Source: Streptomyces sp. P9-A4
GTDB lineage: Bacteria; Actinomycetota; Actinomycetes; Streptomycetales; Streptomycetaceae
Assembly (NCBI RefSeq): GCF_036634195.1
Contig: NZ_JAZIFY010000001.1
Span: 4,164,501 to 4,228,500 of the forward strand
Length of the DNA: 64,000 nt
Direction of reading: 5' to 3'
The notes beneath the pieces are model-generated. The model saw only the letters and a list, made by a program, of their open reading frames with translations. It was not told where the DNA came from and did not search any database. The translations under genes were made by a program, and so were the position numbers. Of this stretch, positions 36,669 to 54,235 are shown piece by piece (position 1 is the first letter of the stretch; every line of letters begins with the position of its first letter).

Positions 36669-37208
36669 ATGCGCTACTTCGAGGACTTCCGGCCCGGCGA
36701 CGTCCATGAGCTGGGCGCCGTCACCGTCACGGCGGAGGAGGTGCTGGAGTTCGGCAGGCGCTTCGACCCGCAGCCCTTCCACACGGAGCCCGAACGCGCG
36801 GAGCGGTCGCAGTTCCGCGGCCTGATCGCGAGCGGGTTCCACACCCAGGCGATGTTCATGCGCCGCTACGTCGACGGACTGCTCGCCTACAGCGCCTGTA
36901 TGGGCTCGCCCGGCATCGACGAGGTCCGCTACCTGCGGCCCGTGCGTCCGGGCGACGTCCTCACCGCGCGCGTCGAGATCCTCGGCGTCACCCCGTCGCC
37001 GTTCAACCCCGCCACCGGCACCGTCAAACCGCGGTGCACCCTGGTGGCCGCCGACGGGACGGCCGTGTTCAGCATGATCCTGCACAGCATCTTCCGCCGG
37101 CGCCCCGCCGGCTCCGAGGCCGACCATCTGTCGTCGATGCCCGCGGCCGAGGACCCCGTCGCGTGCGCGCGACCGGCCAAGACCTGTGTCCCGGTCATGA
37201 GCGCCTGA
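36669..37208 (+). CDS. MaoC-like hotdog-fold protein
   Basis: A 179-residue single hotdog domain of the R-hydratase (MaoC) family. The catalytic Asp/His pair is visible in RRFDPQPFHTEPERA and the next helix in FRGLIASGFHTQAMFMRR; YLRPVRPGDVLTARVEI is the usual strand. Start ATG 36669 after AAGGGGGGCGCGAG. First gene of the cluster operon. In this setting it might hydrate, dehydrate or act as a thioesterase on a carrier-bound intermediate. A ~30-residue C-terminal tail ends CARPAKTCVPVMSA. Function in the pathway is inferred. Confidence 0.85.
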   Translation: MRYFEDFRPGDVHELGAVTVTAEEVLEFGRRFDPQPFHTEPERAERSQFRGLIASGFHTQAMFMRRYVDGLLAYSACMGSPGIDEVRYLRPVRPGDVLTARVEILGVTPSPFNPATGTVKPRCTLVAADGTAVFSMILHSIFRRRPAGSEADHLSSMPAAEDPVACARPAKTCVPVMSA

Positions 37209-37304
37209 CGATCCGTCCTTCGTCGGGCCCCTGAACACGGCCGTCCGTACCTCCCGCACCACCCCACCCACACCAGACCGTTCACGAGTGAAGGGGGACC
37301 TCCT

Positions 37305-53500: not shown

Positions 53501-54235
53501 GTCTACTGCTGGCCGGGCCTCGGCGGCTACACGATGAACCTGCGGCACCTCGCGGAGGAGATCGGCATCGACCGCCCGTTCTACGGGGTGCAGGCCTACG
53601 GCATCAACCGGGGCGAGGAACCGTACGACACCATCCGCGAGATGGCGGCGGCGGACGTGGAGGCGATACGGCGACGCCAGCCGGCGGGCCCGTACACCCT
53701 CTGGGGCTACTCCTTCGGCGCGCGGGTCGCCTTCGAGTCGGCGCACCTGCTGGAGGCGGCGGGGGAGCAGGTGGAGAACCTCTTCCTGATCGCCCCGGGC
53801 TCCCCGAAGGTCCGCTCGGGGGAGACGGGAGGGGCGGCGTACGACAACCCGGCGTTCGTGACGATCCTCAACTCGGTGTTCTCGGGGGCGATCGAGTCGC
53901 TGCCGGAGGAGATACGGGACCGCGGGTCGTTCGTCGCCCACGTCGCGGACCGCTTCCCGGCGCTGGACCCGGACCTGATCGCCCGGATCGTGGCGATCGT
54001 CGAGGAGACCTTCGAGTTCACGTACACCTTCAAGGAGTTGAGTGAACGTCAGGTGAGCTGCCCCGTCACCCTCTTCAAGGCCGCGGGCGACGACTACTCG
54101 TTCCTGGAGAACGCGGAGGGCTGGTCGACGCGCCCGCCGACGGTGGTGGAACTGGACGCGGACCACTACAGCCTGCTGCGGCAGCCGGACCTGAGGGAAC
54201 TGATCAAGAAGATCAGGTACCGGCTGGGGCAGTGA
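50510..54235 (+). CDS. single-module NRPS, A-Ox-T-TE, indigoidine synthetase (BpsA/IndC) type
   Basis: A 1,241-residue NRPS. The A domain (about 20-500) has YVIYTSGSTGKPKG near residue 161 and GRADNQIKLRGFRVELDEI near 397; an FMN oxidase domain is inserted (about 505-845, FARKTYRFYEGG ... SSGYSSKSGHPLPAARR), followed by SANGKVD, a T domain with DDFFESGGNSL (Ser near 939) and a TE with WGYSFGARV (Ser near 1067). Order, length and many segments (NHDWVKNAAVIVK, EAALMDQGNHG) match BpsA/IndC, which cyclise and oxidise two glutamines to the blue pigment indigoidine. The MSFDAAQWEI pocket matches the Gln-activating enzymes. The usual partners indA/indB are absent. Confidence 0.88.
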   Translation: MPSTLDRLLHAETLERPDATAVVYEGETLTFRELSEGALVLAAYLRTLGAAVDTRIGVHVDPSLELVIGAWGVLCSGAAYVPLSPEYPEERVRYMIEDSGARIVFTQDDHRDRVTALAPPGTTVVTLHDAVQHAWRTAGEEAPPQAPPHGIDERDLAYVIYTSGSTGKPKGVMVEHRSIVAQMRWMAAEHQLRPGATVLQKTPMSFDAAQWEILAPAVGARVAVGPPGCYRDPERLVDTVRAHGATMLQGVPTLLQALVDTERLGTCTSLRRVYSGGEILSRNLAAQLLAELPAAELINLYGPTECTINASSHTVDRAALTPDGPAAIPIGRPAYDTTFHIREGELCIGGAQVARGYLDRPELTAERFVTTETGERLYRTGDLAHWNEDGTVQFAGRADNQIKLRGFRVELDEIALAVENHDWVKNAAVIVKDEPRTGFQNLVACVELSPKEAALMDQGNHGAHHQSKESKLQVKAQLSDAGARDDADLAGRPVVVLPGVTPTERMRRTVFARKTYRFYEGGEVTRAEVLAALARRPEGIGSRTIAGLAVADLGEILRWFGQFTSEERLLPKYGFASPGALYATQLYVEARGVAGLDPGRYYYHPVRHRLYLTEAVPGDGEPYLRVSFRGQRSAIEPVYRNNIQEVLEIETGHMVGLFEEILPGYGLDIRPCGTSAPEEASYEVVPYDEECRADPEVDLYVQAHPGLVADLPAGQYAYEQGDLRLISPSLVEKRHVIAINQAVYERAKLGITVISRTSEPSRAYVDLGRALQRLQLGGHGLGFMSSGYSSKSGHPLPAARRVDEILTAAGRETGPSYFFVGGRVSEEQRLSEGMYEDTVHMKGPAEMIRDDLVHHLPDYMIPNRVVVLDRLPLSANGKVDTKALGELAVVNAGLHGRPHVHPRTRTEGRLAEIWAAALTYEEVEAVSVLDDFFESGGNSLIAVALVTRINREFGAALPLQILFDRPTIEKLAHQLDGAAATPASRLVRLHAPGARPPVYCWPGLGGYTMNLRHLAEEIGIDRPFYGVQAYGINRGEEPYDTIREMAAADVEAIRRRQPAGPYTLWGYSFGARVAFESAHLLEAAGEQVENLFLIAPGSPKVRSGETGGAAYDNPAFVTILNSVFSGAIESLPEEIRDRGSFVAHVADRFPALDPDLIARIVAIVEETFEFTYTFKELSERQVSCPVTLFKAAGDDYSFLENAEGWSTRPPTVVELDADHYSLLRQPDLRELIKKIRYRLGQ

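Follow-up and report, generated by a model that had tools for sequence, protein, structure and literature searches.

A Streptomyces gene cluster combining a predicted glycine-nitronate core with a built-in set of SAM-regeneration genes

Gene content of the locus

We analyzed a 64,000-nt stretch of the genome of Streptomyces sp. P9-A4 (hereafter, the window) and a gene cluster within it that carries a complete set of genes for regenerating S-adenosylmethionine (SAM). Open reading frame (ORF) calling, codon-position GC content and family searches revealed 14 codirectional genes at 36669..54235 on the plus strand, overlapping or separated by short gaps (Table 1). All 14 had been named in the original prediction. 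Its reading of the locus, as a biosynthetic cluster carrying the whole SAM cycle, does look right. However, the beginning of the cluster had been placed too far downstream: the conserved unit starts upstream of 36669 with a codirectional major facilitator superfamily (MFS) transporter and a pyridoxal phosphate (PLP) enzyme, both of which had been missed. The starts of metH and of the nonribosomal peptide synthetase (NRPS) gene were also corrected to those in Table 1. The downstream neighbor is a SigJ-type sigma factor gene on the opposite strand (54236-55432). Our preferred interpretation, which we consider reasonably probable, is that the core of this natural-product cluster builds an O-methyl nitronate from glycine on a carrier protein, and that the built-in SAM-regeneration module feeds the cluster's methyltransferases.

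The closest protein to the PLP enzyme in the PDB was methionine gamma-lyase 5e4z (3.6e-95), and the best PDB relative of the PfkB protein was adenosine kinase 4o1g (2.4e-106). The SerRS-like ligase had 3mey as its best PDB relative (6e-26), and its scores against carrier-protein ligases were much higher than those against SerRS. Homology also placed a free-standing acyl carrier protein (ACP) and an AcpS-type enzyme beside this ligase. Both the Pfam match and the predicted fold of the AurF gene product fit an AurF/CmlI-type diiron oxygenase. Six residues in the ligand spacing were invariant in 35 of 35 sequences, the first glutamate ligand being left without assignment. The AurF sequence had no match in the PDB at 0.001, and the AurF profile gave only two weak, R2-like matches. 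The motif patterns searched for were matched in MetK, adenosine kinase, MetF, the second methyltransferase, the NRPS and the ACP, and were partially matched in MetH (2/4) and AhcY (2/3).

Table 1. Genes of the cluster, with their positions in the window and the basis of each assignment
Feature	Coordinates	Strand	Basis
MFS efflux transporter, DHA2/EmrB type; probable exporter	33874..35310	+	Pfam/NCBIfam
PLP enzyme, methionine gamma-lyase / cystathionine gamma-lyase type	35400..36596 (alternative start 35421)	+	PDB relative
MaoC-like dehydratase/hydratase	36669..37208	+	PF01575
LCM/TIGR00027-type methyltransferase; candidate nitronate O-methyltransferase	37305..38147	+	family match
Second methyltransferase, N-terminal winged helix	38144..39187	+	best PDB relative TnmJ 8g5s
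AurF/CmlI-type diiron N-oxygenase	39246..40139	+	Pfam, predicted fold
Amino-acid:carrier-protein ligase, class II SerRS-like; predicted glycine loader	40185..41072	+	family match, PDB
AcpS-type phosphopantetheinyl transferase (PPTase)	41074..41541	+	family match
Free-standing ACP, DSLS motif at residues 35-38	41564..41815	+	family match, motif
metK, SAM synthetase, second copy	41812..43032	+	554 bits
Adenosine kinase (adoK), PfkB family, second copy	43037..44020	+	PDB relative
metH, B12-dependent methionine synthase, second copy	44017..47487	+	1387 bits
metF, methylenetetrahydrofolate reductase, second copy	47484..48362	+	translation and second genome copy
ahcY, S-adenosylhomocysteinase, second copy	48346..49758	+	640 bits
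MDMPI/DinB-like enzyme, possibly mycothiol-dependent	49765..50451	+	family match
NRPS A-(insert)-T-TE, indigoidine-synthetase-like layout; optional	50510..54235 (start most likely)	+	family match

A second set of SAM-cycle genes

The genes metK, adoK, metH, metF and ahcY are contiguous and codirectional in the cluster. A further copy of each was found in the same genome (7.54 Mb, 99.94% complete), all far from the cluster; the idea that the cluster genes might be the sole copies was therefore not borne out. Identities between the cluster and distant copies were 85% for metK, 84% for ahcY, 77% for metH, 60% for adenosine kinase and 62% for metF. In the cycle that we propose, MetK would supply SAM, AhcY and adenosine kinase would remove S-adenosylhomocysteine and adenosine, and MetF and MetH would remethylate homocysteine, so that the module would feed the cluster's own methyltransferases. 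There are only two of these, and the heavily methylated product once envisaged is not supported.

Conservation across Streptomyces

A search with the ligase protein returned 729 matches, of which the best 120 were listed. Ligase relatives at E 1e-20 were present in 104 of 392 Streptomyces genomes, and a ligase of at least 72% identity in 31 (own genome included; 30 rows plus G224, where it lies in two pieces). An adenosine kinase at least 72% identical to that of the window occurred in 29 of the 392 (own genome included; five candidates scored per genome). Among the 19 fetched loci with a ligase of at least 70% identity (L042-L060), all 19 had the fixed order MaoC, LCM methyltransferase (LCM_MT), winged-helix methyltransferase (HTH_MT), AurF, ligase (aaCPL), AcpS, ACP, MetK, adenosine kinase, MetH, AhcY, MDMPI. 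Therefore, the arrangement is not due to chance. MetF was not found in four of these loci (L054-L057). In the nearest relative, L042, a gene conversion of metK (83% protein identity) was considered and rejected: the drop is restricted to the 3′ end and resembles a frameshift.

A second set was made up of the 80 top-ranking loci among 204 confirmed relatives; it overlaps with the 19 loci in strains, so the two sets are not independent. A second methyltransferase like that of the window was found in 47 of the 80 loci (called window-type) and, among the loci fetched, was confined to them. Of these 47, 42 had metK, either whole or as a piece at the locus end, 45 had a relative of the gamma-lyase-type enzyme and 37 one of the MFS transporter (at least 60% identity for both; some loci were cut in the case of the transporter). 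The gamma-lyase-type family, F12, had 19 members in the mapped loci (L042-L059 and L061). In L061, L123, L124 and L141, metK, metH and ahcY were not found and the cluster-type adenosine kinase was kept, as if this gene were the last of the cassette to disappear.

The divergent gene upstream of the cluster (33035-33754, minus strand) had no Pfam or NCBIfam match. Its relatives, 63-95% identical (at least 78% except in L122), occurred in 26 of the 80 loci, nearly all from the first of the two branches described below, and it is possibly a regulator.

The NRPS and other variable parts

The NRPS was intact in 8 of the 13 first-branch loci, a remnant in one (L046) and absent from four (L047, L050, L053, L060). 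It was absent from the fetched stretch of all six second-branch loci (L054-L059). In its stead, these loci carry a gene for a PIG-L deacetylase together with a partial or complete set of AsnB-, PrpF-, SDR- and MetRS-like genes. Because the presence of the NRPS varies while the core stays, the family is defined by its core and not by the NRPS. The NRPS had originally been taken as a main part of the cluster; it is present here but proved to be optional in the family.

The adenylation (A), thiolation (T) and thioesterase (TE) domains were found in the NRPS, together with some 400 aa of inserted sequence (about residues 485-875) in which Pfam gave no match at E 0.001. Its A-domain signature, DAWQYGLINK, is Gln-like; this was read by eye from the translation, with the GrsA positions and the last residue assumed rather than computed. 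It is quite possible, if slightly less than an even matter, that the NRPS is an independent pigment synthetase of the indigoidine type that adjoins the cluster and stands outside the pathway. Its loss or decay in loci of both branches that keep the core fits this explanation. However, in all eight loci with an intact NRPS its gene immediately follows the one for the MDMPI protein, in the same direction.

For the MetRS-like family of the second branch (F26), the KMSKS motif was missing from both full-length copies read (L056, L057). These proteins therefore resemble ligases more than enzymes of translation, and the MetRS-like protein is perhaps a repurposed ligase.

Relatives that point to glycine-nitronate chemistry

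The remoter loci kept AurF, the ligase and the ACP, often with the LCM methyltransferase, and were without the second methyltransferase and, within the stretch fetched, the full SAM cycle. In 78 of the 80 loci, an LCM-type match (E 1e-8 at any coverage) accompanied AurF, the ligase and the ACP; L117 and L144 were the exceptions. A nitronate monooxygenase was annotated after AurF-ACP-aaCPL in two of four plasmid loci (Streptomyces sp. NBC_01431 and Tistrella mobilis). The unit AurF-aaCPL-AcpS-ACP-LCM_MT was common to S. achromogenes NRRL B-2120 (L158) and S. albireticuli NRRL B1670 (L167), species that we take to be producers of enteromycin or its carboxamide. Both loci also share extra genes, whose families were scanned in L158; these include KAS III-like, ATP-grasp, diaminopimelate (DAP)-decarboxylase-like and acyl-CoA dehydrogenase genes. 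O-methyl nitronates are rare, reactive groups. He and Ryan reportedly described, in Nature Chemistry in 2021 (13:599), a glycine-nitronate O-methylation pathway to enteromycin carboxamide with carrier-bound glycine, a diiron oxygenase and a methyltransferase. The shared unit and the nitronate monooxygenase of some relatives fit that pathway, and from this we infer that the window cluster makes a glycine-derived O-methyl nitronate.

In the proposed pathway, the AcpS-type PPTase would arm the ACP and the SerRS-like ligase would load glycine to give glycyl-ACP. The AurF-type enzyme would then oxidize the amine to the nitro/nitronate stage, giving nitroacetyl-ACP. The nitronate would be O-methylated by the LCM-type enzyme, the candidate for this step as the methyltransferase shared with the enteromycin-type loci. 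The gamma-lyase-type PLP enzyme, MaoC, the second methyltransferase and the MDMPI protein would attach and shape the remainder, helped in some strains by the NRPS or the AsnB/PrpF/SDR/MetRS-like set, and the MFS protein would export the product.

What the analysis shows is the gene content, its conservation, the predicted oxygenase fold and a duplicate elsewhere in the genome for every one of the five cycle genes; the substrate, product and flux are inferred. Several points weigh against the scheme. The other two plasmid relatives were without a nitronate monooxygenase, and the one from S. clavuligerus was also without an annotated AurF. At E 1e-5, no relative of the extra genes of L158 and L167 (F18, F43, F42, F17, F41, F40) was found anywhere in the window, and none was labelled in L042-L060. 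The LCM methyltransferase was only 49-52% identical to its S. achromogenes and S. albireticuli counterparts, and the one SAM motif pattern applied to it was unmatched. In the S. albireticuli locus metK was not seen, the coverage reaching 1 kb past the last shared gene. Five of the 47 window-type loci (L123, L124, L130, L133, L141) had no metK despite continuing sequence, and L061 had none either; therefore, the SAM cycle is not indispensable. Finally, a gamma-lyase-type enzyme beside a SAM cycle fits poorly into the scheme and could consume methionine.

SAM-regeneration cassettes in other clusters

The enteromycin-type locus of S. eurythermus (L189) had metK and adenosine kinase soon after the biosynthetic genes, with one small ORF between; metH, metF and ahcY were not in the stretch. 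At the equivalent place in L158 and L160, metK was present but truncated where the locus ends. In S. lavendulae, the source of L116, a further complete SAM block lies on the second contig of the genome (L190). We also surveyed 20 loci that encode a second adenosine kinase of 62-69% identity; they were chosen near the top of the ranking, with several in between passed over, and are thus not a random sample. Nineteen of the 20 had metK, and eight had all five genes, seven of them in the order of the window. Scanning one neighbor gene per cassette gave a Pfam family at 1e-8 in 19 of 20, among them O-methyltransferases (2), NRPS C/T/TE, an AMP ligase, a carboxyltransferase, an FAD monooxygenase, a prephenate dehydrogenase and a SARP-type regulator. 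The 20 loci are not all unrelated, because four of them share NAD_binding_9 proteins and two share EamA transporters.

In a tree of 60 adenosine kinases, 15 housekeeping sequences were separated from 19 window-type and 26 other cluster-borne ones by a branch with an SH-aLRT of 100. The tree was a quick, unrooted one with no outgroup and several long rows, and the 45 cluster-borne sequences form one clade only with a root placed among the housekeeping copies. This split suggests a portable accessory module. Cassette and housekeeping copies were mixed in the AhcY tree (43 rows), with five label changes for the window type, 10 for other cassettes and five for primary copies. The mixing is partly due to two cassettes of one genome (L051 and L240, both in G383), whose AhcY proteins are practically identical. 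The two cassettes differ in adenosine kinase and in parts of MetK, which suggests gene conversion between them. A common origin of all cassette genes was suggested by adenosine kinase but not by AhcY and, without a clean AhcY split, is not established for the whole cassette.

We tentatively propose that SAM regeneration in Streptomyces natural-product clusters is a portable module whose lineage is separate from that of the housekeeping genes, taken up by many clusters, trimmed there (to metK and adoK or to adoK alone) and sometimes recombined. The window would then show its acquisition by a cluster family, as yet undescribed, that makes O-methyl nitronates and is present in about 8% of the sampled Streptomyces genomes. 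We would hold this proposal to be evenly balanced, but put it just below that because the adenosine-kinase tree had no outgroup.

Other explanations of the core and the SAM genes

The SAM-cycle genes might serve self-resistance or target bypass, the product being a methionine or SAM antimetabolite to which the cluster copies are insensitive. The presence of a methionine gamma-lyase-type gene at the start of the cluster, of a MetRS-like gene in the second branch and of adenosine kinase without metK in the four loci noted above would all suit such a role. Nevertheless, we think it unlikely: the MetRS-like proteins without KMSKS resemble ligases, related cassettes stand beside other clusters and in that of furaquinocin, and metF and metH are improbable joint targets.

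Equally doubtful is a VlmB-like role for the AurF-type enzyme in making an azoxy group or another N-N bond, with the ligase donating an aminoacyl group as in valanimycin biosynthesis. VlmB is also termed a diiron oxygenase and valanimycin uses seryl-tRNA, according to PMC11705231. However, no flavin N-hydroxylase or VlmO-like partner was annotated among the 16 genes (no VlmO query was made), the ligase sides with carrier-protein ligases over SerRS, and AurF-ACP-aaCPL is paired with a nitronate monooxygenase in two relatives.

That the SAM genes are ordinary primary metabolism placed here by chance is hardly credible: MetK, MetH and AhcY do reach curated family cut-offs, but we rejected this explanation because a second copy of each of the five exists, and the cluster and usual genomic adenosine kinases fall on opposite sides of a fully supported branch.

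Other loci in the window and genome

Upstream of the cluster, the window encodes a 2484-aa protein (24242-31696, plus strand) with a C-terminal Ntox27 domain (173.8 bits) that looks like a polymorphic toxin. The small ORF at 31671-32123 (plus strand, 150 aa, no Pfam match) may encode its immunity protein. A second carrier-protein-ligase locus of the same genome (L079, C2:578000-597990) had no AurF labelled. It shares condensation protein, phytanoyl-CoA dioxygenase and DUF6271 families with the S. clavuligerus megaplasmid locus (L082).

Comparison with known systems

The NRPS resembles indigoidine synthetase (BpsA/IndC), which has an FMN oxidase domain inserted in its A domain, in A-insert-T-TE layout and in size. 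It differs in that its insert contains no oxidase recognized by Pfam and in that the NRPS is optional in the family.

The SAM block has a closer counterpart. As the original prediction had noted, the furaquinocin cluster contains methyl-cycle genes: in Streptomyces sp. Je 1-369, metK-carbohydrate kinase-metH-metF-ahcY correspond to Orf8-12, and the furaquinocin authors describe the furanonaphthoquinone I cluster as arranged alike (PMC9686526). The gene order is identical to that of the window, although the surrounding pathway is an unrelated, meroterpenoid one. SAM regeneration in clusters is therefore already known. The glycine-nitronate core, which was missing from the original prediction, is also known in kind, but the combination with the present gene set was not found in the open-licence PMC papers searched. 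One paper there that mentions a diiron oxygenase concerns, in the part available, biotin antimetabolites (PMC13336041).

If our interpretation is true, a widespread and so far unassigned cluster family is predicted to make O-methyl nitronates by a testable three-enzyme route. The scattered methyl-cycle genes of clusters would also lead to the idea of a transferable methyl-supply cassette, which could serve as an engineering part.

For the enteromycin-type pathway, the same logic of carrier-bound glycine, diiron oxygenase and methyltransferase is predicted in the window cluster. Enteromycin-type loci have the KAS III/ATP-grasp/decarboxylase/acyl-CoA dehydrogenase set, whereas the window cluster instead has the gamma-lyase-type enzyme, MaoC, the second methyltransferase, MDMPI and a full SAM cycle. 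The window cluster is thus predicted to work in the manner of an enteromycin cluster, without being one.
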